Origin: Anaeropeptidivorans aminofermentans | GTDB lineage: Bacteria > Bacillota > Clostridia > Lachnospirales > UBA5962 | DNA: 64,000 bases | Reading direction: 5' to 3' | Assembly (NCBI RefSeq): GCF_940670685.1 | Contig: NZ_OW711693.1 | Span: 1,860,001 to 1,924,000, forward strand | Part shown: in pieces, positions 37,089 to 54,467 of the stretch | How the letters are laid out: each line of letters begins with the position of its first letter | Position numbering within the stretch: position 1 is the first letter of the stretch | Notes under the pieces: model-generated | Database searches by the model: none | What the model saw: only the letters and a program-made list of their open reading frames with translations | What the model was told of the DNA's origin: nothing | Made by a program: the position numbers and the translations under genes

Positions 37089-37102
37089 TAAATTAAACCA
37101 AC

Positions 37103-37129
37103 AAAAAAGCCCCTAAACGGGGCTTTTAT
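37103..37129. terminator. Bidirectional terminator between the rlmL-like gene and the TPR gene
   Basis: AAAAGCCCC, loop TAAAC, GGGGCTTTT with flanking A and T tracts. The stop codon of the convergent TPR gene lies within its T side. Confidence 0.85.
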
Positions 37130-38289
37130 ATATTATGAATCCTTCTATAATCTTTTTTAAATGCAGAAAGGATATCGCCTAAAACAAGCTGGTAATCTCT
37201 TGTTTTGCCTTGAGCTTTTTTTATTTTGGCATGCTCTAGCAATGCCCTTTTGTTATTTTTATCAAGGTTTAAAGCCTTTGTTATGGCACCGCTTGCTTTT
37301 GTAAGCTCATAATTATGCCTGTGATATTTCGCCAAGAGCACCCAAAGCTCACAATTATCCTTATTGCCGAAGACAATGGCCTTTTCAAGGCTTTTTACTG
37401 CGGCGCCGTAATCAGTGAATACGGCATGGATATTGGCTTGGCTGATATAAAAATCTGCATCTTTTTCTTTGATATTTTCCAATACATCCAAGGCTTCTTT
37501 GTATTTTCTAAGTTTAACATAGGCCTTTGAAAGACTGTAATAATATTCCGGCTTGTATTCTGCTTCCGCCGCCATTTTATAATAATTAATGGCTTCGGAA
37601 GGATTGTTGCTTTCAAAGCAAAGCCTTCCATAAAGGAAATTAACGATGGAATTATCGCTTATTCTTCCTGCCTTATTAAGATAAACAAAGGCCTTCTCAA
37701 AATTTCCGCTTAAAATAAGGGATTCAGCGTAGTTAATCAATACACTGAAATTTTCCTTATCTATTTCATAGGCTCTTTTAAGAAAGGCGGCCGCTTCTGC
37801 AAAATTTTGAGTATGCATAAGACAAATGCCGGCATTATTTAAAACCTTGATATTATCACCATAGGAAAGGGCTTTTTTATAATAGATAAAAGCCTTTTCA
37901 GCATCGCCTTTTTTAAAGAGATAGTCTCCCATATCTTTAAGGCGCTCCCATTCAAGCCGATGCTCCCATTCTTTAAGCTCAACCCTTAATGCCGCAAGCT
38001 GGGCCCTGTCATAATAATCTGTGAGAGATAAAAATGCCAAAAGCCTGTCGGAAGAGCTTTCAATTGTTTTAAGATTAGAGATTTTTGAAGCAAGATATTT
38101 TTCTCCTAAAACATCTCTTACCCACTCTATAAACTCATCACTTATAAAATCTTCAAAGGATTCAATCCAATAATTATAAGAATGGTATAAAGCTTCCTCA
38201 AAGGAATATACTTTTATATTTGTTAAATGGAAGGTATAAGGGGTTTTAATTTCACTTTGAGAAATACAATATAAAATCTCCGCAGGCAT
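37126..38289 (-). CDS. TPR-repeat protein at the distal end of the Hsp70 cluster
   Basis: A 387-residue soluble protein. After a ~100-residue N-terminal region without a known fold, about seven tetratricopeptide repeats run from residue ~115 to ~375. Examples are GDYLFKKGDAEKAFIYYKKAL, then NAGICLMHTQNFAEAAAFLKRA, NYAESLILSGNFEKAFVYLNKA and ALDVLENIKEKDADFYISQA (given as separate units). TPRs often dock Hsp70 C-termini or other partners, so a scaffold or co-chaperone role is plausible. That is inference from context. It is separated from the Hsp70-vWA gene by a family A repeat of about 225 bases, so it may be transcribed separately. Confidence 0.85.
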   Translation of the reverse strand: MPAEILYCISQSEIKTPYTFHLTNIKVYSFEEALYHSYNYWIESFEDFISDEFIEWVRDVLGEKYLASKISNLKTIESSSDRLLAFLSLTDYYDRAQLAALRVELKEWEHRLEWERLKDMGDYLFKKGDAEKAFIYYKKALSYGDNIKVLNNAGICLMHTQNFAEAAAFLKRAYEIDKENFSVLINYAESLILSGNFEKAFVYLNKAGRISDNSIVNFLYGRLCFESNNPSEAINYYKMAAEAEYKPEYYYSLSKAYVKLRKYKEALDVLENIKEKDADFYISQANIHAVFTDYGAAVKSLEKAIVFGNKDNCELWVLLAKYHRHNYELTKASGAITKALNLDKNNKRALLEHAKIKKAQGKTRDYQLVLGDILSAFKKDYRRIHNI

Positions 38290-38324
38290 TTTTTCACCAT
38301 CTTTATATTTGACTTTTATAAATT

Positions 38325-38550
38325 AAAGTAAAACAAAATTAAGGCAGGAACAAAACCTATTTTTTATAAACGGATTAAATATAAAAACACTATATTTAAC
38401 CCACTCATAGTCAATAAACTTGAAAAGAAGCTTGTTGGCTATAAGAGAAAGTCTATCTGAAATACTTACAGTGAAACTATAAAAGCATTTTTAAGTTCAC
38501 TAAGCGTAAAATATACAGTTTTGTTACTGTTATTAATTTCTTTTGCTATA
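38325..38550 (+). repeat. Repeat family A, full-length copy 1
   Basis: An MITE-like element with imperfect terminal inverted repeats (AAAGTAAAACAAAATT at the left; AATTTCTTTTGCTATA at the right, preceded by TTTTGTTACTGT). It contains internal hairpins: TATTTTTTATAAACGG, and AATAAACTT / AAGCTTGTT flanked by ATAGTC / GGCTAT. It matches the copy at 62701-62918 in opposite orientation along its length. It fills the spacer between the Hsp70-vWA and TPR genes. Confidence 0.8.
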
Positions 38551-38554
38551 TACC

Positions 38555-40630
38555 TTATAGCCTTATAAGCTCTGTGATGCTAAGGGCTATATTATCAAGA
38601 ATATCGTAGAATTTATCCTTTAAATCATAGTACTTTCCATTGGGCTTTGTTACAGGGTCAAAGGCTGCGATGCTGTCTCTGTCTTTTCTTGCTACAACAT
38701 AAGTTGTAATATTTCTTGAATTCAGCATATCGCATATATCCATGACGCTGTTTCCTCTGTTTGTAGGCACATGAGGGGGAGCGTCGGTTATTAATATAAA
38801 TATATTTCTGTCAGAAACACCTAAAGAAGCGGAATTTAAAAGCTCAACCCCTGTTTCAAGAGCATCAAGGCTGGATTCCGGAATATCTCCTCCGTGGGTT
38901 CTCGGAATGTTCTTAACCTGCTTCTGAAATTTTGTAACATCATTCGTAAAATTATATACCGACGGCTTTTCCTTTTCATTTAAGTCTCCGAAGCCAATAA
39001 GGCCTAAATTAAAGCTTGCACCCTTCGAGCTTAATATCTCGGAAAACTCTATGGCTCTGTCCTTAACACCATTGATATAAGTGTCCATAGAACCTGTTGT
39101 GTCTATGATAAATACAATATTCACCTTATCGGTAGCTACGGCATGGGGCCTTTCAGGAGGCGCAGAAGCCTTTGAACGGTCAAACACGCCTGTTTGAATA
39201 CGCCCTGTAGCCATATCCTTAACTTCTACCTGAAAAATATTATTTTCATCTATGAAATAGGTTATTTCCAATTGAGTGGTTCCCGAAAGCCCGGAAAGGA
39301 TAACGCTTCCGATATATTTCTTCGCTTCTTCGTGACCCTGCTCCCATTGGTAAAGGTCTACGCTTACGGCAGTTGCACCGGACATGGAAGCAAAATTAGA
39401 ATCGGATATTCTGCATGGTATAGCGCTTCCCATAGGAATGATGGGAATAAGGCTCTTTTCCATAGTAGCGATATTGGTGATTGCTTCTGTTCCGAAAATT
39501 TGCCGGGTTATCTGACCTATTTTAACATTTGAGTTAGGCAAATGAATTAAATAATTATAAATTGCCGCACCCATCGCAACGCTTTTGGCAGGGTCTGTTG
39601 CCCTGTAGGGCTCTTTAATGAAGCCTGCAACCATTCTCTTAACCATCGGTATCAGCGTAGAACCGCCTACAAGAATAACCTTTGATATTTCATCGGCACC
39701 TTTTCCTGACCTTTTTAGGGCTTCTTCAACGATATCCCTGCTTCGGTCTACATATTTACGGATCATCGCTTCAAAATCTTCCCTTGAAATTTCAACAGAA
39801 AGATTCTTCGGAACGCCTTCATGAATTATCAGGGGGTTTATTCTTGCCGTAGCGTTATTTGTGCCGGAAAGCTTCTTTTTGGTAGCCTCTGCTTCCTGTT
39901 TCAGCTTCTGAATTACTCTCTGGCGTTCGCTTGTTTCCAAGGTGTCAAGGTCTATATTATTTTCTTCCATGAACTTTTCTTTAAAGAATCGGATAATTTC
40001 TGCATCAAAATCGTCTCCGCCCAGGTTCATATCGCCTACGTCGGAAAGCTCCTGAAAAATCTCCTGGCCGTTTTCGTCCTGAGAAACCTTTAATACACAG
40101 GCGTCGAAGGTTCCGCCGCCTAAATCATAAACAAGAAGGGTCTGGGCATACCCTTGGCGATAACCGTATTCTATGGCGGCAGCCAGAGGTTCGCTCATTA
40201 AAAATACATTTTTAAACCCGGCTAAAAGCCCGGCTTCTCTTGTAGCAAATATCTGCCTGTCGTTAAAATAAGCCGGATGGGTAATTACGACCTCGTCAAA
40301 AGTTTCTCCTGCTTGTTCTTCCGCCGCCTTTTTTAATTTTTTAAGAATTTCGCCGCTTATTTCCTCCGGTGTCTTTGAAAAGCTTCCCAAGGTAATTTTA
40401 TCAGGGGAGCCCATAAATCTTTTTACAGATACCATTGTCGTTTCAGGATAAATAACGGCCCCTGCTTTAGCTTCTGAACCTACGATAACCCCTTCTTCCG
40501 TATAATTTACAACAGAAGGGAGTATTTCATCAGTACCGTCAACCTTTACTATATCCAAGTCATTATTTTTGTCGTTATAAATTATTGCAACTGAATTTGT
40601 AGTTCCAAGGTCAATTCCCAAATAACTCAT
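38555..40630 (-). CDS. Hsp70 (DnaK-like) fused to a C-terminal von Willebrand factor A domain
   Basis: A 691-residue protein. Residues 1-365 form a complete Hsp70 nucleotide-binding domain: phosphate-1 GIDLGTTNSV (5-14), the catalytic Glu in MSEPLAAAIEYG (145-156), phosphate-2 VYDLGGGTFDACV (167-179), and adenosine site VILVGGSTLIP (318-328). Residues ~375-490 resemble the substrate-binding beta sandwich, but the helical lid is missing. In its place is a vWA domain (about 502-685) with MIDAS FIIDTTGSMD (507-516), the GGDIPESSLDAL segment (580-591) and ILITDAPPH (612-620). The Hsp70 part looks catalytically competent. vWA domains bind metal and partner proteins. It is separated from the next Hsp70 gene upstream by a family B repeat. 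Confidence 0.93.
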   Translation of the reverse strand: MSYLGIDLGTTNSVAIIYNDKNNDLDIVKVDGTDEILPSVVNYTEEGVIVGSEAKAGAVIYPETTMVSVKRFMGSPDKITLGSFSKTPEEISGEILKKLKKAAEEQAGETFDEVVITHPAYFNDRQIFATREAGLLAGFKNVFLMSEPLAAAIEYGYRQGYAQTLLVYDLGGGTFDACVLKVSQDENGQEIFQELSDVGDMNLGGDDFDAEIIRFFKEKFMEENNIDLDTLETSERQRVIQKLKQEAEATKKKLSGTNNATARINPLIIHEGVPKNLSVEISREDFEAMIRKYVDRSRDIVEEALKRSGKGADEISKVILVGGSTLIPMVKRMVAGFIKEPYRATDPAKSVAMGAAIYNYLIHLPNSNVKIGQITRQIFGTEAITNIATMEKSLIPIIPMGSAIPCRISDSNFASMSGATAVSVDLYQWEQGHEEAKKYIGSVILSGLSGTTQLEITYFIDENNIFQVEVKDMATGRIQTGVFDRSKASAPPERPHAVATDKVNIVFIIDTTGSMDTYINGVKDRAIEFSEILSSKGASFNLGLIGFGDLNEKEKPSVYNFTNDVTKFQKQVKNIPRTHGGDIPESSLDALETGVELLNSASLGVSDRNIFILITDAPPHVPTNRGNSVMDICDMLNSRNITTYVVARKDRDSIAAFDPVTKPNGKYYDLKDKFYDILDNIALSITELIRL

Positions 40631-40683
40631 ATATCTTCTCCAATCCCGCGTTATTTTAAAGACCGCGAATTTATACTAGGATA

Positions 40684-40855
40684 TGTCTGAAAAGTCTAAA
40701 AACATAGTCTGTTTGCCATAGAAACGCGACTTTATCATCAAGTTTTTCTCCTCAGAAGTTTTGCTTTATAAAATCCGGCCTTCGGCTGTTCGGACTTCTT
40801 TCCGTTTCCATTCATTTCATTGCAAAATATCTATCAGTTTGAGTATTTTCAGACA
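40684..40855. repeat. Repeat family B, copy 1 (MITE-like)
   Basis: Flanked by TGTCTGAAAA and its inverse TTTTCAGACA. The inner ends also match copy 2 at 56291-56560 (GTC..TTGCCATA on the left, TTTGA.TATTTTCAGACACTG on the right), while the middle differs. It has no open frame and lies between two Hsp70 genes. Confidence 0.75.
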
Positions 40856-40861
40856 CTGACA

Positions 40862-42496
40862 TTATCCTTTTAAAACAGTTTGTGAAAAACGGTCAGGGTC
40901 AAAATGCTCTTTATATCCCGAAGGAGCATATTCTTCCGAATATCCCAAATCTTCAACAATTCCTTTTACAAGACCGCCGTCTTCTTCTACCATTAAAGTT
41001 ATGGATATTCTTGTTTTTCCGCTGGGCCTTTCAGGAAGGCCGCTCATAATTACATCGCCTATAAGCTTGCAGTCCTCATGCTTATCTTCTTTATTAATAC
41101 GCTCAAGGATCCTTAAATTAAAGCTTGTCATATCCTCTCTGCTGTCTCCTGAAAGCGTAAATATATGGCTTTTTTTTGCAAGAGCATAGGATGTTCCTCT
41201 TCTTATCATAGTAAAGAAGGATTTTCTCGGGCCGTTTTGAACCTCAAGGCCAATATCATGAGGAACCGTTACTTCAAATTCAACATTATATTTTTCTGCT
41301 TCTATTTCCGTATCGGATAATATGCCCATTTTCATTGCGGCATAATAACAGGCGCCTAAGGATATATCAAGGGCAGGACGCTCGGAGGTATATATTTTTT
41401 CCTCGTCATTAAATATTTCGTTCAGCATTTCTCTTACCCAGGGCATATGGCAGGAACCGCCTTCAAGCAATACCCTATCTATGTCTTCAGGAAGCAAAGT
41501 ACCCTTATAAGCCTCTCTAAGAGCCTTAAGAACAAGCTTCCTTGTCTTTGATATAAAAGGCTCTATAAGTTTCTCAAAATTTTCACGGCTTAACTGCTCC
41601 ACAAAAGGCGGAATACAGAATGTAAAGGGGATTCTATAATTTTTAACCCCTGAAAGCCTTTCCTTTGCTTCTCTTGCCCTTAAAATAAGCTCAACCTGAT
41701 TATCTATATCAATGTCGGATTTTTTTTGTTTTGTGGCATTTTCAATGAATTCATAGCATTTTTCCAATATAGCTTCATCTACATTGTCGCCGCCGTGGTA
41801 GGCTTCGCCCCCTTCGGAAACAACCTGAAGCTTTATGTGGTCGCTGTCTTTTTCGGAAACGTGGAAAATTGTAATATCAAGGGTTCCGCCGCCGAAGTCG
41901 AATACCATAATTTTTTCGTCAAGCTTTATCTGATGTCTGAAGTTATAGGAAAGAGCCGCCGCTTTAGGCTCTTCGATAAGACAAATAAGCTTATCCTTAA
42001 GGCCTGCAAGTTCACATGCCCTTATCGTCGCTTTTTTAGCTCCATCGTCAAAATCATATGGCACAGAGACTACAAGGCCTGCGATTTCCGCTTTGGGATT
42101 CATGGCTTTACAGTGCTTTACAAGCTCTTTTAATATAAAAGAGGAAATTTCCTCAGGAAGATAGTCTCTGCCGTCTATATTAATCTTTTCGTCGGTTCCC
42201 ATTTTCCGCTTGATGGATCTGATGGTGGTTTCGGGATAAATTTTCATAGAGCGGTAGGCTTCTTCACCAATTACCCATTCCCCTTCGCCCTCTTCGTTTT
42301 TTCTGTACTGTACAACAGAAGGAAGCGGAATTTTGCCAAATCCATTGGATATGTCTATAGGATCTGGTTTCTGGCTTATAGGATTAAAATAGCTTATGAT
42401 GGAATTGGTGGTTCCAAGGTCTATCCCTAATATATAATAATCCTCGGGAAGCTTTCCCTTTTCGCTTATAATTTGCTTATACTCTTCCCAGCTCAA
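40862..42496 (-). CDS. Hsp70/DnaK-family protein without lid domain
   Basis: About 544 residues. A ~22-residue N-terminal extension precedes a full Hsp70 ATPase domain: ILGIDLGTTNSIISYF, CLIEEPKAAALSYNF with the catalytic Glu, MVFDFGGGTLDITIF and RVLLEGGSCHMPWV. The C-terminal ~140 residues form a reduced substrate-binding beta region (GRTISIT-like strands around DVIMSGLPERPSGKTRISIT). The helical lid and acidic tail of DnaK are absent. The frame opens at GTG 42505, overlapping the upstream stop. TTG 42496 is preferred because AGAGGTGA, which contains that GTG and the stop of the upstream gene, is the evident ribosome site. Translation is probably coupled to the upstream pseudo-Hsp70. Confidence 0.9.
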   Translation of the reverse strand: MSWEEYKQIISEKGKLPEDYYILGIDLGTTNSIISYFNPISQKPDPIDISNGFGKIPLPSVVQYRKNEEGEGEWVIGEEAYRSMKIYPETTIRSIKRKMGTDEKINIDGRDYLPEEISSFILKELVKHCKAMNPKAEIAGLVVSVPYDFDDGAKKATIRACELAGLKDKLICLIEEPKAAALSYNFRHQIKLDEKIMVFDFGGGTLDITIFHVSEKDSDHIKLQVVSEGGEAYHGGDNVDEAILEKCYEFIENATKQKKSDIDIDNQVELILRAREAKERLSGVKNYRIPFTFCIPPFVEQLSRENFEKLIEPFISKTRKLVLKALREAYKGTLLPEDIDRVLLEGGSCHMPWVREMLNEIFNDEEKIYTSERPALDISLGACYYAAMKMGILSDTEIEAEKYNVEFEVTVPHDIGLEVQNGPRKSFFTMIRRGTSYALAKKSHIFTLSGDSREDMTSFNLRILERINKEDKHEDCKLIGDVIMSGLPERPSGKTRISITLMVEEDGGLVKGIVEDLGYSEEYAPSGYKEHFDPDRFSQTVLKG

Positions 42497-42501
42497 TAAA
42501 T

Positions 42502-44088
42502 TCACCTCTGCAATGATATATAATATTCTTCTTTAAGGCCTGTAGACTGAAAAAATTCTCCAAAGCCCAAATCCATAACCCTCGCCTTAAGAAGGCCGAT
42601 GTTTTCTAAAGAAAGACTAAGCTCAAGCTTTAAAGCCCCCTTAGGTCTTTTTGCCACATCTTTTATTTTTAAATTGGTAAGGGTAAGAATTTTCCCTTCG
42701 CTGTTTCTTCTGAACAGCTCAATTTCAAGTTCTTCTTCCGTCTTCTCATTTACAATAATTCTTACGGCCTTATTTCCCTGCCACCAGAAGCAATTCTTTT
42801 CGATTATAGGAATAAACTTCCGGCTTTCATTTTTTAATATAAAAATTCCGATATCCTCTTTTAACTGAAGCTCGTCCGATATATTAAGCTCGAAAGTTTC
42901 GTAAGCCTCTAAATAAGAGGCGGCAAGTATGGACGCCCCTTCTGCAATGGAGGCTTTTGAATTTTTAAACCTGATAATATGGCTGTCGGGAAAAAAGTCA
43001 TTTATAGCTTCTTTTATCCAAAGCATTTCAAAGCCGCCGCCTGCACAGATGACAGTATCAATATCCCCAAAATCAATAGGCGTATCTTCTTTTTTAATAT
43101 TATTTTTAAATAAATTACTAAGAAAGTCTTTTAGGCTTTCCTTAAAGGGATTGATGAATTCTTCCGAATCTTTTTTTGAAAAGGAGCATTGAAAAGGCGG
43201 ATAGGCAAAATTAAAATACAGTTTCACATCCTTATTGAAAATACTTCTTTGAAAGATAATATCTTTATGCTGATAAGAAAACACGCTTATCTGTTCTAAT
43301 ATTTGATAAGGAATGGATTCCTTTGGTGTTTTTGTATTTTCCGAATACATATCTATAAATATTTCATTTATTTTCGATTCAAAATTAGCCGAACCTATAT
43401 TTTTATCATAAAGATAAGAAAGCGTATTAATGTTTACGGCCTTTCCATCGGGCAGGGCCTCGTATAAGCTTCCTCTAAGCTCTCTGCTGCCGTAATCAAG
43501 AACTAAAACATTCTCCTTTACGGGTGATTTGCCAAAATAATAATTGGCAAAAATACATTCTCTGTCCGTAACAAAATCAAGTATTTTTCTATCATAACCT
43601 ATCAGAGAAAAGCACCTTAAAAGCTCTTCTTTTCCGTCGTCTGAAATATAGCTTGGAAGAGAAACAACAATCCCTGCTATCTCAGCTTTAGGATTTATAT
43701 TTTTACAATTATTAATAAGTTCTTTCAGATACAGGCTTAATATGCTTACAACGGATTCCAGCTTATGGTCAATTTCGACATATTCCTTTTTCCCAAGTTT
43801 ACTTACAAGAGAAGAAAAAGTAATGTCGTTTCCCATTCCTTTATTCAAAATAGCATACTCTCCGAAAACCCATTCTCTGCTTTGGGGTATATATTGGACG
43901 ACCGTAGGCATATTAGCCTTTCCGTATCCGCCGCTGATATCTATAATTTCAGGGATTTTTCTATTGACATCAAAATAACATATAGAAGATGTTGAATCGC
44001 CTAAATCAATGCCCAGAATAAATTGGGTTTCATCTAAGTTTTTTGATTTGAACATATTTTTTAAGCCAATCAAGCTCATTGCTATCAC
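42502..44088 (-). CDS. Degenerate Hsp70-fold protein lacking ATPase signatures
   Basis: 528 residues (from GTG 44088; ATG 44079 is an alternative, since spacing to AGGA is poor for both). It aligns along its whole length with the next gene (shared NPKAEIAGIVVS, ISGGYGK, and C-terminal RPKGALKLELSLSLENIGLLKARVMDLGFGE region motifs). Every nucleotide motif is altered: DLGTTNS is DLGDSTS (28-34), DFGGGTLD is DYGSRELR (198-205), the catalytic Glu segment EEPKAAAL is DRECIFAN (175-182), and EGGSCHMP is AGGGFEML (349-356). It is therefore probably unable to hydrolyse ATP and may be a structural or regulatory partner of the active paralogue. The frame is intact and codon use is like its neighbours, so it is not a decayed pseudogene. 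Confidence 0.85.
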   Translation of the reverse strand: MIAMSLIGLKNMFKSKNLDETQFILGIDLGDSTSSICYFDVNRKIPEIIDISGGYGKANMPTVVQYIPQSREWVFGEYAILNKGMGNDITFSSLVSKLGKKEYVEIDHKLESVVSILSLYLKELINNCKNINPKAEIAGIVVSLPSYISDDGKEELLRCFSLIGYDRKILDFVTDRECIFANYYFGKSPVKENVLVLDYGSRELRGSLYEALPDGKAVNINTLSYLYDKNIGSANFESKINEIFIDMYSENTKTPKESIPYQILEQISVFSYQHKDIIFQRSIFNKDVKLYFNFAYPPFQCSFSKKDSEEFINPFKESLKDFLSNLFKNNIKKEDTPIDFGDIDTVICAGGGFEMLWIKEAINDFFPDSHIIRFKNSKASIAEGASILAASYLEAYETFELNISDELQLKEDIGIFILKNESRKFIPIIEKNCFWWQGNKAVRIIVNEKTEEELEIELFRRNSEGKILTLTNLKIKDVAKRPKGALKLELSLSLENIGLLKARVMDLGFGEFFQSTGLKEEYYISLQR

Positions 44089-44098
44089 GATCCTATAG

Positions 44099-45967
44099 TT
44101 ATTTTGCAGCTATAATATTTGCTCTTAATAAAACCTGCCCGTTTTGAGAATAGCCTCTGTTAAGGACCTTTATAATGCTGCCCTTGGCAAAGCCCTCTTC
44201 TTTTTTAGCCATTAAAACCTCATGCTCTTTGGCATTAAATAAATCTCCCAAAGATGGATTTATCTGCCTGATATTAAATTTAACAAATTTATTTAAAATG
44301 TCTGAATATATCTTTTTTACATAATTTCCGTATTGGAGAACGTTTCTATCAGAGCTTTCCATAAGTTTTTCGACACTGTAATTTAAAATTTCTTCAAATG
44401 TGGACATTTCAAATAAAAGGGTGTCTCTTTTAAATCCTGTGCTTAAAGAAATTAATTTATCTTTCTTTTCTTCAAGTAATTTATTGTATTTATATAAAGC
44501 TTCTCTGGAATTTTCCTTCGTAGTCTCCGAGAAAAAACGGTTAAGGGCTGTTATTTCCTGATAGTTCTGTTCCATATAGCCTTTATGATTATTTTTTAAA
44601 TAATCCAAAACCAGCCCGCGTATTTCTTTTATGAAATCATCATTTAAAACAGCATTCTCAGAGGTATCTATATTGTTAATATTTTCCAGGTAATAATCGA
44701 AGCCTTCCTTTATGCCTTCTGTTTTAATGCTTACAGTCTCATTTATACCTTCTATAATATTTATTTCCTCACAGGAAAGAAGGCTTTCCTTATTTTCCGA
44801 AAAATACGGTGCAAGAGAATTAAAACTTAATATCATAAAATCGGCAATGGATTTGTTTTCATCTACGAATTCTTCTTTCAATTCTTCAAGGCATTCTCCT
44901 TGGTTTTCTTTTTCGATTATTCTTATATATCTAAGTATTCCGTCATTTATATCGGTTTCAAGCTCTTCTTTTATCATTTTGATATTTTCTAAATGCACCT
45001 GTTTATCAAATTGATAATCAGAATGAACAGAATCGGCAATAATCACATTAAAATCTTCAAAAGAAGGTAAGCATATCTCTTCATCCCTTTTATCAAGCCT
45101 TGAAGAATACTTGTTTTCCATGTATTCAATGGATTTTCCCAAATGCTGATAAGCTTCTTTCGCAAGAGAAAGCATATTTTCAATGGCTTCTATATTGCCT
45201 TTAGACGCCTCAAGTTCAGGAATTTGAATTTTAATAATAGAGGATAATATGGCATATTCCTGCTTTATAAGGCTAAGCTTATTATCCAAATCGTCGGAAT
45301 ATAAATTTTTATCAATTTCTGAAAGAGATTTCTCTATGCCTTCGCAGTATATTTTGTAAACAGGCCCGGAGAATTCCAATAAAATCCTTTTGCCTATTTC
45401 TTCAAAGCTCATTTCTATATTTTCATTGTCTATATCCCATATGCTTCTATCCAAAGAAGCATAGATGCTTTTAATAATCCCCGGAAACACAGGCTTTATG
45501 ATATCCATGGAAGATGCAATATAGGATTTGAATATTTCAGACGCATTTAGATTTATAGCATTTTCTGCGATACAATTTTCTTCTTTATAATCATCGCATC
45601 TTGATGCCAATACATCTGACATGCCTTGCATAATAGAGCTTATATGCCCGTCTTCAATATTTGTCCCGACCTTTTCATATATATGAATGATATCCCTGTA
45701 AGTTTTTATTAAATAGCCGTAGGATTTCTCATAAGCGCTTAAAAACAAAAATATATTTGAATTGTGATAAGACGAAATATAGAGGCTGTTGAAGCTTTGT
45801 ATAAAGACCTCGTTTGTAAAGCCTATGGCATAGTCTTGAAACATTTCCAAATAGGCTTTATACATTTTATTATAGGATTTTATAACTTTTATGCTGTGTT
45901 CCGACTGACCTTTATAGACATTTCTGCGAACATTTCTTTTTTTACGCTGCTTCGGCGATTTAAGCAT
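44099..45967 (-). CDS. Large helical protein with a C-terminal GrpE-like domain
   Basis: 622 residues. The first ~15 are very basic (KSPKQRKKRNVRRNV). Residues ~20-565 are helical, with coiled-coil-like acidic stretches and no family I recognise. The last 53 residues (570-622) read like the beta-wing domain of GrpE: NPSLGDLFNAKEHEVLMAK followed by GSIIKVLNRGYSQNGQVLLR. The matching GrpE features are the 'LDPNVHQAI' element, then Gly, 'V..I.QKGY..NGR..R.A.V'. GrpE releases ADP from DnaK, so this protein may be the exchange factor dedicated to the neighbouring Hsp70s, with the N-terminal part replacing the GrpE stalk. It lies 10 bases upstream of the pseudo-Hsp70 gene. The GrpE relation is read by eye and needs a profile search. 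Confidence 0.8.
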   Translation of the reverse strand: MLKSPKQRKKRNVRRNVYKGQSEHSIKVIKSYNKMYKAYLEMFQDYAIGFTNEVFIQSFNSLYISSYHNSNIFLFLSAYEKSYGYLIKTYRDIIHIYEKVGTNIEDGHISSIMQGMSDVLASRCDDYKEENCIAENAINLNASEIFKSYIASSMDIIKPVFPGIIKSIYASLDRSIWDIDNENIEMSFEEIGKRILLEFSGPVYKIYCEGIEKSLSEIDKNLYSDDLDNKLSLIKQEYAILSSIIKIQIPELEASKGNIEAIENMLSLAKEAYQHLGKSIEYMENKYSSRLDKRDEEICLPSFEDFNVIIADSVHSDYQFDKQVHLENIKMIKEELETDINDGILRYIRIIEKENQGECLEELKEEFVDENKSIADFMILSFNSLAPYFSENKESLLSCEEINIIEGINETVSIKTEGIKEGFDYYLENINNIDTSENAVLNDDFIKEIRGLVLDYLKNNHKGYMEQNYQEITALNRFFSETTKENSREALYKYNKLLEEKKDKLISLSTGFKRDTLLFEMSTFEEILNYSVEKLMESSDRNVLQYGNYVKKIYSDILNKFVKFNIRQINPSLGDLFNAKEHEVLMAKKEEGFAKGSIIKVLNRGYSQNGQVLLRANIIAAK

Positions 45968-46105
45968 TTATATGACCCCTTAAATATTTCTTATAGGCAG
46001 AACAGTCAAGCCAATGAATATTTTACTAAGAAACATGAATTCGTGTATTTTAATAAAGAAGCCACGTTTCTATGGCAAATAGGCAAGGCTTTTGACTTCA
46101 CGCCC

Positions 46106-47782
46106 CTAGTAAAGCTCATCTACGGAAAGCTCTGTTTCAACTCCTGATGCACTGGTAGATTTAGCAGTAACCTTAAGCATATTTTCCTGAGACACATTAA
46201 ATATAATTTGCACCTTTTCCTGACCTCTAGGCCCTTGGGGTATTCCTCTTAAAGAAGTACCTGCAAGCCTTTTCATGCCTTCCTGGTTTACATATTGGGT
46301 TTTATCGTCGGTAGAAGGAATGGTATTTTCATAAACAACGATTGCCATACTGGTTACATTGTCAAAATTCGTTGTAAGAAGCTCCCCTGCCTCAACCACC
46401 AATCCTTCTTTGGGTATATCGATACCAGCTTTTACTATTTCTAAAAATCTTCTGCCGGCTATTTCAAGACCTAAGGGGTGAACAGTCTTCTCCTGAACAA
46501 TAGGACCTCTTACCGTAGGCATCATAATCATATTGCAGTAATGGGCGGCTCCTTGGGATATGCTTAATGCAGGGCTTATTTTAGATTTATAAGGCTCCTT
46601 ATTAAACTTTTCCTTTATTTTTTCGCCTATTGCGCTTATAGAAGAGCTTCCGCCTACAAGGAATATTTCATTAACATTTTCAGAACTGAATCCTGCCGCA
46701 TTGATACAATCGTCTACACATTTTAATGTCATATTTAAAATATCATGAACGTTTTTACCGGAGAATTTTTCAAATACCTCGTCAGTATCTCCCAATTGGT
46801 TTACTCTTTGATGATTTAAAAACTCATCTCTTGATATTTCCATATTAATATTTACTATTTTAGGCTCCTGAATCAAAGGCGCAAGAACTATTTTGGTAGT
46901 TGCGGCCTGTGAAAGCCTTTCTTTTGCCTGAGTTGCAACCTGATTCAATCTTACAAGAGCAACCTTTTTCTGACGCTTTGATACACCATCATCGGCATTT
47001 TCATCGAAAAGGTCGATTTCATTATTTGTAAGCTTTTTAAATTCCTCATAAATCATATCCATGATTATTTTATCAATATCGTTTCCGCCGAGATTATTAT
47101 CTCCGTAGGTGCTTAATATGGATATGGCAGGCTCTCCTGCTTCTTCTATTTTAACTTGGAGAAGGCAGGCGTCAAAGGTACCTCCGCCGAAGTCATAAAC
47201 CAATACGTTTTTATCATTTGTTTCGTTTATTGCATAGCTTATGGCGGCAGCAGCAGGCTCAAGCCTTAAATATACGCTTTCCTCATCAAAGCCTGCAAGG
47301 ATAGCCGCCTGCTTTGTTTTCTGCTTTTGCTTATCGGTAGAGTTTGCGGGAACCGTAATTACACAGCCGGAAAACTCACCGGCAATATTAAGCTCCTCCT
47401 GAACATATTCATCTGCCTTAAGTTTTAAATAGCCTATGATTTCGCCGGCTATTTCCTCCGGCAAAAAGCTGTATTCTTTTTCGTCTACAGTGATATTTAT
47501 TTTTTCTTCAGAGCCTAAAAGCCTTTTTATAGACAAAACTGTACTCATAGGATATATTACGGCAGCTTCTTTTGCCTGAATGCCGAATATTTTTGAAAGC
47601 TTTGTTTCGTCGTCCGGATCTGTTTCAAACTGAACGGCTGTAGGGAATATATTGCTTCCGTCCAAAGGAATGGTTTGCGCTTCGCCGTCTTTGAAATTAT
47701 ATATGCTTACTACTGAATTTGTTGTTCCAAAGTCAATACCTAAAAAAAGTCCTCTTTCAAGATCAAGACCCAGTGTTGCCAT
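46106..47782 (-). CDS. Hsp70/DnaK-family protein
   Basis: 558 residues. A complete Hsp70 ATPase domain: FLGIDFGTTNSVVSIY (13-28), LRLEPAAAAISYA with the catalytic Glu (172-184), VYDFGGGTFDACLL (195-208) and FLVGGSSSISAIGEKI. The substrate-binding beta domain is recognisable in the C-terminal 130 residues (VHPLGLEIAGRRF, YENTIP, GIPQGPRGQEKVQIIFNVS), close to the DnaK 'GIPPAPRG' element. The protein stops there, without the lid or tail. Of the four paralogues it is the nearest to classical DnaK. GGAGGAG precedes the ATG. It begins 150 bases after the large TPR-like gene. Confidence 0.92.
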   Translation of the reverse strand: MATLGLDLERGLFLGIDFGTTNSVVSIYNFKDGEAQTIPLDGSNIFPTAVQFETDPDDETKLSKIFGIQAKEAAVIYPMSTVLSIKRLLGSEEKINITVDEKEYSFLPEEIAGEIIGYLKLKADEYVQEELNIAGEFSGCVITVPANSTDKQKQKTKQAAILAGFDEESVYLRLEPAAAAISYAINETNDKNVLVYDFGGGTFDACLLQVKIEEAGEPAISILSTYGDNNLGGNDIDKIIMDMIYEEFKKLTNNEIDLFDENADDGVSKRQKKVALVRLNQVATQAKERLSQAATTKIVLAPLIQEPKIVNINMEISRDEFLNHQRVNQLGDTDEVFEKFSGKNVHDILNMTLKCVDDCINAAGFSSENVNEIFLVGGSSSISAIGEKIKEKFNKEPYKSKISPALSISQGAAHYCNMIMMPTVRGPIVQEKTVHPLGLEIAGRRFLEIVKAGIDIPKEGLVVEAGELLTTNFDNVTSMAIVVYENTIPSTDDKTQYVNQEGMKRLAGTSLRGIPQGPRGQEKVQIIFNVSQENMLKVTAKSTSASGVETELSVDELY

Positions 47783-47932
47783 AAAATCTCCTCCTAATTT
47801 AAAATACTGTTAATCTGAAGTAAATCCTTTCATATAGCACTTGTACTTTTTCATGGACTGCATACAAGTACGGACAGCTTCCACGTCATTGTTACGAATA
47901 AGTTTGCATTCATGACTCTTTAAACTTTTATA

Positions 47933-50611
47933 TCAGATTATATTTCCGATAATAGATTGCTTTTCACTTAAAAGATCGTTTATGATCTTTTCCGCTTCGT
48001 CATATTTAAACATCTGATCATAAATAATGGCATTATTAATCAAAAAATAAGTATCACTTGTATTTTCTTTAATGCCTGCCCTATTATTTATAAAATGCTC
48101 TTCTTTCGTGTCTATACTGCCTGTGGAAATTTGTTCACTGAAATAAAAAGAAATTTTTTCGTTATAAAACAAGGGCAAAACAGTAGAAAATATCCCAAAT
48201 ATTTTATAATCCATTTCTATAGACTTATATTCACTGTCCTCTTCCAGCTTATAATATAAAAAGACCTTCTTATTAGACGAGCATTTATAAATAAAGGGTT
48301 GATTCTTTTCAATATACGCATTTCTTAAGGTTTTGTCTTTTATGTTTTTAAACTCCGGAATAATTATGTTGTCAAACTCCATATATTCCATTGCTCTTTT
48401 CATTATTTCTTCAGAATGGAAACTTCTCATTCCAAAATGGAGGTAGATTCTTGAAAGGCTGTAGGAAAGAAGGCTATCCTCTGCTTCCATCTCTACTTTT
48501 TCAAGGATAGAAAGGGTCTCATATTCAGGTTTTACTAGATTTATAAGCATCTCATAACAGGCAAAATAAATATATTTTTTAACCAGCTCATTTTCTTTAT
48601 CCAACTTATACATTCTAATAAAAACTTCTTGAGAATCAGGAGAAAAGTCATGCATCCATATACTGTTTTCAAGGATAATTTCATCAAGCCTTCTATTATC
48701 TGCAGAAAGGCTTAAAAGCGTACTGCTTAATTGCAGCCATTCTTCCTGGCTTCCCCTATAATAATCAAGAACAATATCCAAAAGATTTCTGTCATAATAA
48801 TTATTCATTAAAAGCTCATAAGCTGGATTTGCTACGAACTGCCTTAAATTTTCCTTCTTGGATATTTCTTTAAGGGCAATAAATAATGCCCTGTCGGAAA
48901 TAAATTCTCTTTTTTTATTGATGATTCTGATGGCATTGGTATAGTCCCCGGCGTTTATAAAAACATTCAGCATACTTTCCATATGCTTTTCGCTGATATA
49001 ATTTTCATCTATATCTTTGAAATACTGTAAAGCAGCATCGTAATCATTTTTTAGAAAAAGAAGATTTCCTAAAGCAGCGCTTACCTGCATTCTAAATACA
49101 GGCGATAGCTCGGGAAAGCTTAAGGTTTTATTTAATATTAAAGAATAATCCTCGTTGGTTTTTTCAAGATTGATATAATAATCCGAAAGCGCAAGATATA
49201 TATTAAGGTCTTCATAGCCTCTTGAAAGAAAGTCCGTATAAAGCTTGGGACCGGCGGTTTCCAATTGCCTTTTGAAAGTGGCCTTGTAATTTATAATTTT
49301 TTTGTTGCTGCTATCCATAACAATGTATTTGAAATTACCTGTAGGAGATTTTATCATGCATTTGCCGTTTTCGATTTTATATATATCCATATAAGAAATT
49401 TCTTTTTCAGATACCCAAACAAAACCTTCTGAAAGGTCTTCAAACTTGCCTTCATAAAGAAAAAGATTTTCATATAAAATGGTTTCTGTTTCTTTGGCAA
49501 TATCTTTATAACGGTTTCTTATGCTGTCTAAACAGTAATGATATATGCTTAAATAATATCTGCTTTTATTTGTTTTTATATTGTTTAGGGCGAAGCGGAT
49601 AATTTCCATATTAAGCTTATATTCATTTATAAGAAAGCTGAATTTCTTTTTCGTAATCAGCTGATGGTAAACATAAGGAAGAATATCCGTGTCTATTAAA
49701 TAATTTTCTATCAGGTCGCTCATAATATAGAGGCTTATGTCTTCTTCATCGTTCAATGCGGAAGCCTTCACGAGGGCCTTTGAAAGGCCTTTAAAAGAAA
49801 GCTGTTTTGATTCAGCCTTTTTATAAAACAGATAAGCATCGTAAGAAAAGTCGGAATTTTCTATATGGCATTTACAAATTTCTATAAGGAGCCAATCAAT
49901 ATTAAATAAATTATATATTTCTTTATATAAGGATAAATCCTTTTTAATTTCTTTTACAGCTATTAATCGGTTGTCTTCAATAACATAATCCTTAAGTATC
50001 CCTTGGGATAAAGCCCATTTAAGATAATTGTTAAAAAGAAGCTCATTTTTAAATAAAGTACCTTCTTTGGACATATTGTGCAAAGCATAATACATGAAAA
50101 AAGAACGGCCGCCTTTTGTATAGGAAAGCCCAAGAAACTCCATGGCTTCATCAAAAAGTTCAAGCCTTAAATACAAGTCTCCCATAAGCAAATCATATAT
50201 ATATCCTTTATTTCCAAGCTCCTTAAGCTGTTTCATAGTCTTTTGAGCTTTTTTAGTTTTGCCCTGCTTTATCAGCAGAAGTGAGTTAAGGTATATATAT
50301 ATTCCATAAATGTCGCTGCCGCTGTTTTTATAATATGTTCTATAAGATTTAAAAGAATTTAAAGTTTCTTCAGCAGTATCAAGATTATTAATCTCGATAT
50401 TATAAAATATATCAAGTAAAAAAAGATGTACTGATGAGGGATTTGTTGCAAGAGCTGATGCTACTGCTCTTAATGCCTTAGACAAAAAGGAAATATTTCC
50501 CAGTAAATAACTGCTGTAATATCTTAAGGAAGTAGCTATGGCATTTTTATAATTGGGCTTTTTAAGAAGCAGCTCTTCCATACCTATTATTTTTTTTTCA
50601 ATCGTTTTCAT
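47933..50611 (-). CDS. Large TPR-like solenoid protein of the Hsp70 cluster
   Basis: 892 residues, predicted helical over most of its length, with degenerate tetratricopeptide-like pairs. Examples are GYIYDLLMGDLYLRLELFDEA (~150-170; quoted loosely), SAALGNLLFLKNDYDAALQYF (~515-535) and NVFINAGDYTNAIRIINKK. No signal peptide is visible. From memory, large Lachnospiraceae proteins labelled DUF5717 have this size and sit beside the beta-rich protein encoded here, but I cannot confirm the match. ATG 50611 starts 2 bases after the upstream stop codon, with AGGTGG eight bases before it; a longer frame to 50623 would overlap the upstream gene. Coupled translation is likely. Confidence 0.8.
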   Translation of the reverse strand: MKTIEKKIIGMEELLLKKPNYKNAIATSLRYYSSYLLGNISFLSKALRAVASALATNPSSVHLFLLDIFYNIEINNLDTAEETLNSFKSYRTYYKNSGSDIYGIYIYLNSLLLIKQGKTKKAQKTMKQLKELGNKGYIYDLLMGDLYLRLELFDEAMEFLGLSYTKGGRSFFMYYALHNMSKEGTLFKNELLFNNYLKWALSQGILKDYVIEDNRLIAVKEIKKDLSLYKEIYNLFNIDWLLIEICKCHIENSDFSYDAYLFYKKAESKQLSFKGLSKALVKASALNDEEDISLYIMSDLIENYLIDTDILPYVYHQLITKKKFSFLINEYKLNMEIIRFALNNIKTNKSRYYLSIYHYCLDSIRNRYKDIAKETETILYENLFLYEGKFEDLSEGFVWVSEKEISYMDIYKIENGKCMIKSPTGNFKYIVMDSSNKKIINYKATFKRQLETAGPKLYTDFLSRGYEDLNIYLALSDYYINLEKTNEDYSLILNKTLSFPELSPVFRMQVSAALGNLLFLKNDYDAALQYFKDIDENYISEKHMESMLNVFINAGDYTNAIRIINKKREFISDRALFIALKEISKKENLRQFVANPAYELLMNNYYDRNLLDIVLDYYRGSQEEWLQLSSTLLSLSADNRRLDEIILENSIWMHDFSPDSQEVFIRMYKLDKENELVKKYIYFACYEMLINLVKPEYETLSILEKVEMEAEDSLLSYSLSRIYLHFGMRSFHSEEIMKRAMEYMEFDNIIIPEFKNIKDKTLRNAYIEKNQPFIYKCSSNKKVFLYYKLEEDSEYKSIEMDYKIFGIFSTVLPLFYNEKISFYFSEQISTGSIDTKEEHFINNRAGIKENTSDTYFLINNAIIYDQMFKYDEAEKIINDLLSEKQSIIGNII

Positions 50612-50612
50612 C

Positions 50613-51815
50613 TTAAAAACCACCTATGGTTAATTTCAGAAGCTTGGAAAATTGTCTTTTTTTATATACGGACTCTATATATAACGAACTTTCCAGCGTA
50701 GGCTGCTTTTTAAGGCTTAACTGGGCCTGCAAAAGCTTTGGGATATCTATAGTAAAAGGAATAAGAGCTGTTTCGTTTATATAATATCTCTTTCCTTCAA
50801 GCTTAATAAAGCTGTCTTTAGGGGTTATATCTACAGTAAGCTTCTCATTTGCATTATTTATAATTAAAATATTTGAACTATCCTTAAAAGAAAGGTATGT
50901 TCTTTCCAATTGGGCATCTATAAAGCTAAGCTTAACGGCCTTCACCTCAAGAACTTTGTCCGACAGAAACACCTTATCAAAATTGACTTTTCTGCTGAAT
51001 TTCAAAGGGTCTATGGCATAATTTATATATGCCGTGCCTTCATTGTCAAAATCTGATGAAAGAACAGTCTTTTTGCCGAGAGAAAACCACGGGGATATAT
51101 TTTTAATTTCTTCTTCAATATAGCCAGATCCTGTCTTTTTTAGCTTAATGAGCCCTGTATATATATCGTCATTAAAAGCAGGGACAATAACAGAAATAAG
51201 CCTGTTTTCAAAATCTACGGAGGCTCTGTGCTTCAGTTTATTGGCAATTAAAAAATTATCCAAAGCCCTTTCCTTATTTGTATCAAGCAGGAACTTTTCA
51301 TATAAGTCCATATTTTCATATCCTATGGCTTTAAGCCATGACATAAATTCTCTTTTATAAAATAAGGCCTCAGCTTTTGAAGGATATTTCCTGAAATAAC
51401 CATAAAAATCCTTTAAAGAAGAAATACTTATTTTTTCCTCTGTTTCAATAGAACAAGGAACTACCTTTATGGTAAATTCAATTTTATGCTCGCCGCCGTT
51501 TGACATAATAACGGCGGTTGATTTCAGTATTTCTTCGGAATTTATATTCGGGGCTATTTTAACTTCGTTAGCATATTTGGAGCCATATGTATTTAAATTG
51601 ATATAAAACATTATTTTTGAGTTATTTCCGTTAAATTCTTCCGGCTCAAAGCTTATAAACCGGCTGTTGGACATAATCCTGCCGGCTATTGTTCCGCCAC
51701 CGCTGTTTTTTATAATAATGCTTCCTTCGCAGCTGTTAGAAGTTTCAATATAAATCTTTTTCGTGTCTTTATTAATAATTGGCAACGGTCCTTCAAACTG
51801 CTCTTTAAAATCCAT
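50613..51815 (-). CDS. Beta-rich unknown protein (Ig-like domains), Hsp70 cluster
   Basis: 400 residues. The N-terminal ~120 residues look like an immunoglobulin-type beta sandwich (IYIETSNSCEGSIIIKNSG, then FISFEPEEFNGNNSKIMFY). A helical middle follows (about 130-200). The last ~200 residues are again beta strands (ISVIVPAFN, NILIINNANEKLTVDI, YINETALIPFTIDI). It has no signal peptide or TM segment, so it is probably cytoplasmic. I recognise no function. It is tightly spaced with the coiled-coil membrane gene upstream (11 bases) and the TPR-like gene downstream. A strong AAGGCGG site precedes the ATG. Confidence 0.78.
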   Translation of the reverse strand: MDFKEQFEGPLPIINKDTKKIYIETSNSCEGSIIIKNSGGGTIAGRIMSNSRFISFEPEEFNGNNSKIMFYINLNTYGSKYANEVKIAPNINSEEILKSTAVIMSNGGEHKIEFTIKVVPCSIETEEKISISSLKDFYGYFRKYPSKAEALFYKREFMSWLKAIGYENMDLYEKFLLDTNKERALDNFLIANKLKHRASVDFENRLISVIVPAFNDDIYTGLIKLKKTGSGYIEEEIKNISPWFSLGKKTVLSSDFDNEGTAYINYAIDPLKFSRKVNFDKVFLSDKVLEVKAVKLSFIDAQLERTYLSFKDSSNILIINNANEKLTVDITPKDSFIKLEGKRYYINETALIPFTIDIPKLLQAQLSLKKQPTLESSLYIESVYKKRQFSKLLKLTIGGF

Positions 51816-51826
51816 ACTATCCGCCT

Positions 51827-53149
51827 TTATTTGATTTTTAGTATTTCATCTTTAATTATGGCTAAGGTCTGAATATAGGCTTTGCTTTGCTCTTGAAGCT
51901 CTTCAAAGGCTTTATCTATATGGTCTATCACTTGGGCATTGGTCATGGTTATCATTTTGATATTGTCTTTTAAATCCTCATTAAGTTCATAATAAGAGGT
52001 ATCTACATGATGGCTTATAATGCTTCCCAAAGCCTCTCCAAGCTCTACTGTTATGGATTTAAGGCCTTCTTCATAGCTTTCAAGGCTTGTTTTTAAAATC
52101 TTCTGATTTTCTGTAAGATAAGAAAGTTCTTCTTTTACTGATAAGCTTAAAGCAGAAAGTTCTTCATACTTTTTATCAATATTTTCAGAGGAATTTATAA
52201 GGGCATGAATCTGTTCAGAAATTTTACTGCTTTGGGCCTCACTGGATTTGCTTAATGCTTCTACAGAGTTTATAAGCTTATTTGAAACATTTTCAAAAGA
52301 CGAAAGGGTGTCTTTTAGGGACTTTGTTTCTAAATTAAGTTCTTTTTGAGATTCATAGGCATTTTCTACGGCGTTTTTCCACTTGCTTAAAGGTTCGTCA
52401 AGATAAGAGCTGAATTTGGAAAGGCTTTCCATCGTAAGATTTACTGAATCGGCAATCTTTAGCATGCCTTCTCCTATGCCTTTATTCAGCTCAGCGCTTA
52501 TGTTTTTGACAGAGTCTGAAAAAACATTTGCCTGGTTGGCAATTGCCACAACAAGCTCTACTTTAAGCCTTTGAATGGCTGATGTAAAATCCCCTATATA
52601 GTATTGACCTATTTCCCTGTTTACATAACTTTCAATATCGTAAGCAAGATTTTCCCGAATAATATCAAAATTAAAAATAACTGAAAAAATATTAAAAATA
52701 ATAAAAAAGGAAATAGCTGCTGTGCCAAATACCGCAGGATAATCAAATATAACCGCAAGAATAAGACCTATAAAAAGGAATCCTGTTTCTAACCCCTTTA
52801 TAAATCCGCTGAGGCTTTCCATATTTATTCCTAAAAACCGGATACTTAAAAGGTGCCTTTTTACAATGGAGCCTGTATCTATATTGCTTATTCCTTTTTC
52901 ACCTATTGCTCTAAAATCCTTGACTATTTTATTAAGAAGATTATATTTATAAGGCTTTAGGTCTACTATATTATGAACTTCCTTGGCGCTCATTTTGAAT
53001 ATGGCGCTTTGAGCTTTATAACTAAAACATATTAAAATGCGAAATATAATACAAAAGATCCCTAAAGAAAGAATTCCTATTAATGAATATCTGGCAATAT
53101 CGTCATTGATATTTAATACTTGCTCTATTAATGAATTTAAGTCAAACAA
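51827..53149 (-). CDS. Membrane protein with three TM helices and a long coiled coil
   Basis: 440 residues. TM helices at about 21-43, 117-135 and 139-161, then a ~270-residue helical and coiled-coil tail (about 170-440) with heptad-like Ser/Leu/Glu patterns. The topology (one TM, a ~75-residue loop, two TMs, then a coil) resembles MotA/TolQ/ExbB-type proteins carrying long tails. I see no convincing conserved residues of that family, so this is only a structural analogy. It is the first gene of the Hsp70 cluster (TTG start after AAGGGTG) and probably anchors the system at the membrane. Confidence 0.82.
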   Translation of the reverse strand: MFDLNSLIEQVLNINDDIARYSLIGILSLGIFCIIFRILICFSYKAQSAIFKMSAKEVHNIVDLKPYKYNLLNKIVKDFRAIGEKGISNIDTGSIVKRHLLSIRFLGINMESLSGFIKGLETGFLFIGLILAVIFDYPAVFGTAAISFFIIFNIFSVIFNFDIIRENLAYDIESYVNREIGQYYIGDFTSAIQRLKVELVVAIANQANVFSDSVKNISAELNKGIGEGMLKIADSVNLTMESLSKFSSYLDEPLSKWKNAVENAYESQKELNLETKSLKDTLSSFENVSNKLINSVEALSKSSEAQSSKISEQIHALINSSENIDKKYEELSALSLSVKEELSYLTENQKILKTSLESYEEGLKSITVELGEALGSIISHHVDTSYYELNEDLKDNIKMITMTNAQVIDHIDKAFEELQEQSKAYIQTLAIIKDEILKIK

Positions 53150-53205
53150 ATTAACACCCTTTCCCTGTTATATTTAACAATAAATCCGAACATATTTTAA
53201 TGATA

Positions 53206-53228
53206 ATTATATCAGATTTTTATTAAAT
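53206..53228 (-). promoter_or_regulatory. Weak candidate promoter of the Hsp70 cluster
   Basis: On the minus strand, TATAAT lies at 53211-53206, about 57 bases before the TTG start at 53149. The -35 region (GTGATT) is poor. It is the only -10-like hexamer close to the first gene of the cluster. No CIRCE (TTAGCACTC) inverted repeat is present. Confidence 0.35.
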
Positions 53229-53361
53229 AATCACCATGTTTGCGTATTTTTATAAGAAGAAGGTACAAAATGTATAATTTATATTAAATACGTTTGGAAA
53301 ATGATATAAGTTTTAATCTTTATTAAAGTTAGAGTGTTTTATGGGTTTATATTTTAATTAT

Positions 53362-53391: not shown

Positions 53392-53408
53392 ATAAGCGGA
53401 GGTGCTTT

Positions 53409-54443: not shown

Positions 54444-54467
54444 AATTTGGATTACCAGGCATTAAAC

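Follow-up and report, generated by a model that had tools for sequence, protein, structure and literature searches.

Hsp70 systems are usually thought of as a set of DnaK, DnaJ and GrpE. The nearest published description found for the locus studied here is the HSP70 theme of the GAP1-N2 systems: the part of the article used here (Kaur et al., 2020; PMC7159879) describes neighbourhoods with an HSP70, a GrpE, a second HSP70 without peptide-binding domain and an FNIII domain fused to DnaJ or to tetratricopeptide repeats (TPR). CoCoNuTs, in the sections of PMC11090510 drawn on here, carry Hsp70-like units of a nucleotide-binding domain (NBD) and a substrate-binding domain (SBD) in multi-gene operons with McrB/McrC. 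We analysed a stretch of 64 000 nucleotides of Anaeropeptidivorans aminofermentans DNA (the window), which corresponds to positions 1860001-1924000 of the single 3.76 Mb contig of this genome. Nine consecutive open reading frames (ORFs), all on the minus strand, occupy 37126-53149 of the window and were named A to I in transcription order (Table 1). Judged from sequence, this cluster may encode an Hsp70 machine of Lachnospirales that is cytoplasmic, has a housekeeping role and is dedicated to remodelling or assembly, with its own exchange factor and a non-canonical trigger; we give this reading an even chance of being right. The cluster combines several lidless Hsp70s, one of them with a vWA domain in place of the lid, with a GrpE-domain protein of its own and a pseudo-Hsp70 fixed in its degenerate state. 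The component folds are known. Against the open-licence PubMed Central (PMC) literature searched, their combination appears to be new, as do an Hsp70 with a vWA instead of a lid and a core that includes a pseudo-Hsp70.

The cluster shares with DnaK-GrpE the Hsp70 NBD and beta-type SBD (SBD-beta) with the catalytic residues (D, G and H) and a GrpE domain with its beta-wing (E). It differs from DnaK-GrpE in having no lid, J protein or HrcA, in the loss of the J-contact arginine and of the interdomain linker, in having three active-looking paralogues and one pseudo-Hsp70, and in scoring below the NCBIfam DnaK cut-off. A housekeeping hrcA-grpE-dnaK-dnaJ set (hrcA, grpE and dnaJ identified by eye from position and N-terminus) lies at contig positions 1928358-1933134, outside the window and some 15 kb from where A starts. 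The cluster therefore does not replace the housekeeping DnaK set, and the initial annotation was right that hrcA, canonical grpE and dnaJ are not among its genes. That annotation, made from the letters alone, had listed nine consecutive minus-strand genes, namely four Hsp70 paralogues, a GrpE-like protein, two TPR-type proteins, a beta-rich protein and a coiled-coil membrane protein. All nine were recovered as ORFs; only G, given there as 40862-42496, had to be extended to 42505. Pfam and NCBIfam profile scans were run on all nine gene products.

The HSP70 profile (PF00012, Pfam cut-off 20.6 bits) was matched by D at 228 bits (2e-67), by G at 206 bits (8.5e-61) and by H at 308 bits (1.5e-91). 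In all three the match stopped at position 477-497 of the 599 profile positions, as expected from the earlier claim that the DnaK lid is absent. The DnaK equivalog of NCBIfam (TIGR02350) was not reached (D 226, G 216 and H 333 bits vs a cut-off of 822.55). The MreB_Mbl profile also passed its 27-bit cut-off (D 27.3, G 36.3, H 62.9 bits), at scores far below those of HSP70. Residues were numbered as in Escherichia coli DnaK and assigned from known motifs, with the DnaK of the same genome as reference. The phosphate-1, phosphate-2 and adenosine motifs, K70, E171, T199 and D201 were intact in 35/35 rows for D, 23/23 for G and 20/20 for H, and the three proteins are plausible ATPases on this residue pattern. 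The equivalent of R167 was serine or asparagine in 29 of 35 D rows (the column varies, with lysine in two), leucine in all 23 G rows and tyrosine, histidine or phenylalanine in all 20 H rows. The LLL interdomain linker of the genome's own DnaK was absent from D, G and H; this DnaK, used as a control, has both R167 and the hydrophobic linker. We take R167 to be the arginine through which DnaK contacts and docks the J protein, and the hydrophobic linker to be functional likewise. D, which was 54-79% identical to the 18 other rows of one alignment, ended in a VDx[LM]Y tail placed at most two residues from the end in 34/35 rows. This tail was absent from G, H and F, and is a possible docking peptide for a TPR protein.

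The initial annotation listed H as an Hsp70 paralogue and overlooked its C-terminal vWA domain. Residues ~504-653 matched PF25106 (VWA_4) at 3e-11 and PF00092 (VWA) at 9e-9, and occupy the place where the lid of DnaK would be. Residues of the metal-ion-dependent adhesion site (MIDAS) were well kept: D510, T512 and S514 each in 20/20 rows, T578 in 19/20 and D616 in 19/20 with one gap. When the vWA part of H was searched in 398 genomes of the phylum, six genomes matched at 1e-8. Only the match of the A. aminofermentans genome itself lay in a frame of ~700 amino acids (aa); the other five were in frames of 476-1832 aa. A PDB search with H returned ordinary DnaK/Hsp70 chains. Searches of the open-licence PMC literature for Hsp70 with vWA led, besides PMC7159879 and PMC11090510, to an acidophile paper and a mitochondrial one, and the main text of PMC11019930 (mSystems) contains neither vWA nor 'Lachnospir' or 'Clostridi'.

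The GrpE-like assignment of E was upheld by PF01025 (GrpE), which matched residues 467-619 at 2.6e-11 (43.9 bits vs a cut-off of 25.8). The domain forms the last ~155 residues of the protein. Unlike a stand-alone GrpE, E is 622 aa long with a long N-terminal extension, and it scored at most 27.8 bits with the GrpE equivalog profiles of NCBIfam, below their cut-offs of 137-266. The profile of E matched the GrpE of PDB entry 4ani (4.7e-5), with weaker matches of the extension to helix bundles, and the beta-wing pattern was kept in the alignment with the GrpE of the same genome.

F was matched best by DUF5716_C (2.1e-19) and more weakly by PF00012 (5.4e-11, 41.9 bits), the latter still above cut-off. 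Its catalytic residues are degenerate. Among 27 rows, D201 was replaced by arginine in 26 and E171 by arginine in 20, and K70, E171, T199 and D201 were never kept. By these replacements F is a conserved Hsp70-related pseudoenzyme and not a fourth ATPase. The four Hsp70 assignments thus hold under profile search, F being better described as DUF5716_C, and the idea of four ATPases does not. A tree was built from 70 rows, a sample of the available Hsp70-type sequences, with midpoint rooting only and several long F branches. D, G, H and F each formed one clade, which suggests that these Hsp70-type proteins hold four separate, stably kept roles. F clustered (support 100/99) with the DUF5716 proteins of f6, a family that is probably Lachnospiraceae, judging from the distribution of the DUF families and from the large number of its genera (at least 298). 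F, its f6 counterparts and G were on one side of a branch with support 100/100.

DUF5717 is divided here between two genes, B and C, with three ASH/PapD-like sandwiches (predicted) followed by TPR. B matched DUF5717_N (2.4e-28); C matched DUF5717 (3.7e-27), DUF5717_N (1.1e-18) and, weakly, TPR. The two are fused in some relatives (L059 and the f6 loci). The TPR-type proteins of the initial annotation are I (TPR_2, 2.5e-24) and, less clearly, C, and its beta-rich protein is B. The AlphaFold2 (AF2) model of B, made from 10 sequences, had a mean pLDDT of 86 and a pTM of 0.57, and contained the three beta-sandwiches. The best Foldseek matches of B were chains of the ciliary central apparatus, aligned over the whole length with a large root-mean-square deviation and a low TM-score, so that the match is domain by domain. 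With VIA, domain 1 matched OCRL1 (3qbt; Z 10.7, 3.6 Å over 112 residues), domain 2 HYDIN (2e6j; Z 9.8) and domain 3 the Caf1M:Caf1 entry (3dsn; Z 10.7); CEP192 SPD-2 was also among the structural matches (Foldseek/VIA). On the predicted structure, this likeness to ASH/PapD proteins is one of common fold, not of function. A PDB sequence search with B gave weak matches only (best E 0.045), and a PDB search with I gave ordinary TPR chains. As had been anticipated, relatives are known under DUF names, and no relevant description of DUF5716 or DUF5717 function was found in open-licence PMC papers. Both families now gain an Hsp70-related context, and their function can be tested by gene removal.

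Conservation was followed in 57 genomes (that of A. aminofermentans and relatives). DUF5717 was present in 32 of them. An orthologue of D (>800 bits) was found in 27, all among these 32, and in 0/25 of the negatives; of the five DUF5717-positive genomes without D, four belong to family f6 and the fifth is G004. A sample of the class had DUF5717 in 16/391 genomes, all of them from the same taxonomic order. Gene order was analysed in 40 full-type, non-redundant loci, and neighbour pairs were counted only when both genes were on one contig (A-B 13, B-C 29, C-D 32, D-E 32, E-F 29, F-G 21, G-H 22, H-I 15; total 193). Gene order and strand were kept in 193/193 pairs, and 191 were within 1.5 kb, the exceptions being a longer gap in L054 and in L042. 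The genes are thus co-conserved and not scattered, in a cluster that occurs in many families, all within a single order of Clostridia. The tight junctions noted earlier were found in the window at A/B, B/C, E/F and F/G, but not at C/D, D/E, G/H and H/I, where gaps were 138-265 bp; in relatives gaps were mostly <60 bp, including at the junctions that are wider in the window. All of B-I was on one contig in 12 loci. In three metagenome-assembled genomes of Defluviitaleaceae, a family of Lachnospirales (L075, L077, L085), D-E-F stood alone in one place, and in G044, G032 and G010 pieces of the cluster were on separate contigs. An operon built of separable sub-modules is suggested.

The operon of family f6 is reduced. 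Fifteen f6 loci (L049-L052, L149-L159) contained a fused BC gene (15/15), F (14/15), a homologue of I that is shorter than I of the window (15/15) and, after I, a gene named c3 (12/15). Four f6 loci were searched with the profiles of all nine genes, and none of D, E, G and H was beside the operon there. The relatives sample includes four f6 genomes; these lacked D and had no match to the vWA of H, and E was not sought genome-wide. DUF5716_C gave one match in each of these four genomes, vs mostly two (F and G) in full-type genomes. The DUF5717 marker was found in 293/299 f6 genomes, and in 243/246 of those of good quality. Neighbours of the f6 operon were varied (ABC/HlyD-type exporters, purine genes and others) and gave no functional clue. 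Because this operon has no active Hsp70 or GrpE, we regard the pseudo-Hsp70 and the scaffold as the core. A pseudoenzyme, rather than the ATPases, is in the part kept most widely, and nearly all sampled genomes of one very large family carry the core marker.

The full set contains ATPases, substrate beta-domains, an exchange factor and TPR adaptors, and no J protein. Since all elements of an Hsp70 cycle but the J protein are present and the J contact is lost, a dedicated machine with its own trigger is favoured. In the proposed mechanism, a scaffold formed by B/C with F and I would hold or recruit a client complex. The three Hsp70s D, G and H would bind client segments through their beta-domains, which would be permanently open as there is no lid to close, and H would also touch an acidic residue of the client through its MIDAS. 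The Hsp70s would be switched by ATP hydrolysis and reset by E through nucleotide exchange, with F as a non-cycling, Hsp70-shaped structural subunit. Because D, G and H have lost both the arginine equivalent to R167 and the hydrophobic linker, the cycle would be triggered by a partner protein (the TPR scaffold, the vWA or F) rather than by DnaJ. The machine would serve to assemble or remodel a single type of client and would not help proteins to fold in general. A routine cell function is favoured because DUF5717 is near-universal in f6, the gene order is fixed and the base composition is ordinary. A fuller version is more tentative, and we would sooner doubt it than accept it: the MIDAS vWA would clamp the substrate instead of a lid, the ASH-TPR scaffold and the pseudo-Hsp70 would trigger the cycle, TolQ/ZorA-like coupling would be added in some species, and the pseudo-Hsp70 core would be near-universal in one Lachnospirales family.

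Three points weigh against a dedicated Hsp70 machine. DUF5717 was not detected in 25 of the 57 sampled genomes, so that the system is dispensable at the level of the order. The examined f6 loci keep the core without an adjacent active Hsp70 or GrpE, and the core thus seems functional without the proposed engine. Finally, the loss of linker and J contact could mean that the NBDs are nucleotide-gated structural subunits with no chaperone cycle.

The main rival, which we consider unlikely, is a cytoskeleton-like or envelope-associated scaffold in which the actin folds are nucleotide-gated structural subunits, arranged by ASH/TPR proteins and sometimes tied to A or c3. It would account for the loss of linker and J contact in D, G and H and for the wide retention of the pseudo-Hsp70 with the scaffold, and it draws on the scores of D, G and H with MreB_Mbl, which pass the cut-off but are far lower than those with HSP70. 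The resemblance of B to the ASH arrays of ciliary central-apparatus chains points the same way, but is one of common fold only. The exchange factor E and the kept SBD-beta fit a chaperone cycle better.

A membrane coiled coil, found as A in 13 distinct loci and as c3 in 12 of the 15 f6 loci and five others, also speaks for such a scaffold. In a simple hydropathy scan of the nine genes, A showed hydrophobic segments in the first ~165 residues, ahead of a long coiled coil, and B to I showed none. The coiled-coil membrane protein of the initial annotation is thus real; its role as a fixed anchor is not borne out, A being present in only 3 of the 12 loci with complete B-I. c3 is a protein of ~400 aa in which a membrane hairpin separates two likely coiled coils, and two members scanned with Pfam had no family above cut-off. 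It follows I in five full-type loci (L053, L060, L062, L067 and L083, of which L060 and L062 are from one genus). A and c3 were rejected as homologues (hhalign probability 3%), and no locus carries both, some loci being incomplete. Four complete B-I clusters (L058, L059, L061 and L068), among ten loci whose flanks were inspected, had neither A nor c3 beside them, which tells against an envelope scaffold; L064 also lacked both, and had no recognised B. The link to the membrane varies among loci: A, c3 or neither.

The AF2 model of A (7 sequences) had a mean pLDDT of 62, with residues 11-180 at 68-87 in blocks of ten and low values beyond. With VIA, ranks 1-23 were all TolQ/ExbB/ZorA (Z 9.4-12.3) and the first other entry had Z 8.9; for a helical model, Z below ~13 may reflect arrangement only. 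The best match was 8vlw (Z 12.3, 3.1 Å over 176 residues); ZorA 8qyy had Z 10.3 and flagellar stator chains (PomA) Z 6.8. Foldseek matches of A were not significant (E 0.8 or worse). ZorA has a long coiled-coil tail; A, too, has a long coiled coil, which in the model comes after a membrane domain that may share the TolQ/ExbB/ZorA fold. A differs from these proteins in lacking sequence similarity to PF01618/MotA and a B-type partner gene, and in being optional. No match of A to PF01618 (MotA_ExbB) was found at E<=1, hhalign against 19 MotA-type sequences gave a probability of 0.2% or less, and no ZorB/TolR/ExbD/MotB domain was found by Pfam among the nine genes. Pfam and NCBIfam scans of A gave no family above cut-off. 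Among the best 60 of 100 rows of a PDB profile search, the top ones matched the coiled-coil part only. The TolQ/ExbB/ZorA-like fold of the predicted membrane domain is therefore treated as a lead.

It is improbable that the cluster is a conflict or defence system akin to CoCoNuTs or to the GAP1-N2 systems, which centre on a GTPase and carry HSP70, GrpE and FNIII-TPR genes. The likeness to GAP1-N2 neighbourhoods, as far as the source is covered, is that HSP70, GrpE, a second HSP70-type protein and a beta-sandwich/TPR protein occur in one Firmicutes neighbourhood; vWA domains are also common in the systems treated in the part of Kaur et al. (2020; PMC7159879) used here. Within the same coverage, the window cluster differs in having no GAP1 or GTPase, a vWA fused to Hsp70, a pseudo-Hsp70, occurrence in a single taxonomic order and a core marker near-universal in one family. 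Membership was rejected: PF20013 (GAP1-N2) was absent from the A. aminofermentans genome and from the nine genes, and was found in 2/57 genomes (G031 and G032) but beside the cluster in neither, one genome being DUF5717-negative and the other having its GAP1-N2 off its cluster contigs. No TRAFAC GTPase was above cut-off among the nine genes, and the only GTPase among the nine flanking genes scanned was SRP54. CoCoNuTs, in the sections of PMC11090510 used here, share Hsp70-like units in operons, and types II and III-A have separate TerY-like vWA genes. The vWA of the window is instead fused to an Hsp70 that retains its catalytic residues; the Hsp70 unit of CoCoNuTs, according to the same sections (PMC11090510), probably hydrolyses ATP poorly at best. 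Membership of this group was rejected too, with no McrB/McrC-type protein or RNase family in the Pfam matches of the nine genes. The resemblance of the model of A to ZorA, together with a PADLOC ZorA match to its coiled coil (2.9e-5), would suit a defence role, but that match is weak. Defence profiles run on the nine genes gave weak PADLOC matches only, and no GTPase, nuclease, McrB, protease or pore family was above curated cut-off. The presence of DUF5717 in nearly all f6 genomes, the fixed order and a G+C content near that of the window (35.1% for the cluster vs 35.8%) are unlike a mobile defence island.

A link to flagellar assembly or regulation is very improbable: flagellin was found in 31/32 DUF5717-positive vs 17/25 negative genomes (Fisher p 0.007, uncorrected for kinship), but FlhA was found in only 155/299 of the f6 genomes in which the core marker is near-universal, which contradicts the link for the core. 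A sporulation link was rejected, SpoIVA being missing from 10/32 DUF5717-positive genomes (including all four of f6) vs 4/25 negative ones.

Table 1. Positions in the window of the genes A to I and of two adjoining features.
Feature	Position	Strand	Description
A	51827-53149	-	Membrane domain (~residues 1-194, TolQ/ExbB/ZorA-like in the AF2 model), then long coiled coil
B	50613-51815	-	N-terminal part of DUF5717; three predicted ASH/PapD-like beta-sandwiches, helical insert after the first
C	47933-50623	-	TPR-type region and DUF5717 C-terminal domain
D	46106-47782	-	Lidless Hsp70 (NBD + SBD-beta) with conserved C-terminal VDx[LM]Y tail
E	44099-45967	-	622 aa; N-terminal extension of ~465 residues (probably helical) and C-terminal GrpE domain
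F	42502-44088	-	Pseudo-Hsp70 by sequence (DUF5716), catalytic residues replaced
G	40862-42505	-	Lidless Hsp70; closest paralogue of F
H	38555-40630	-	Hsp70 NBD + SBD-beta fused to C-terminal vWA with MIDAS residues
I	37126-38289	-	N-terminal region of ~110 residues and TPR repeats (TPR_2 2.5e-24, Pfam; alignment)
Terminator-like hairpin just past I	37105-37127	-	Found on both strands; from the consensus scan alone
rlmL-like gene	35943-37088		Convergent to the cluster

An Rfam scan of 36500-54500 gave no match. The consensus scan found 70 promoter-like sites, not clearly above the mean of shuffled sequences (61.4, standard deviation 7.1), and 21 terminator-like sites (shuffle mean 13.8, standard deviation 4.3). 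Upstream of the cluster, a divergent gene resembling CobD/histidinol-phosphate aminotransferase was recognised by eye from its N-terminus in six loci (L059, L061, L068, L073, L046 and L083). An aminotransferase class I/II gene was also present upstream of BC in three f6 loci.

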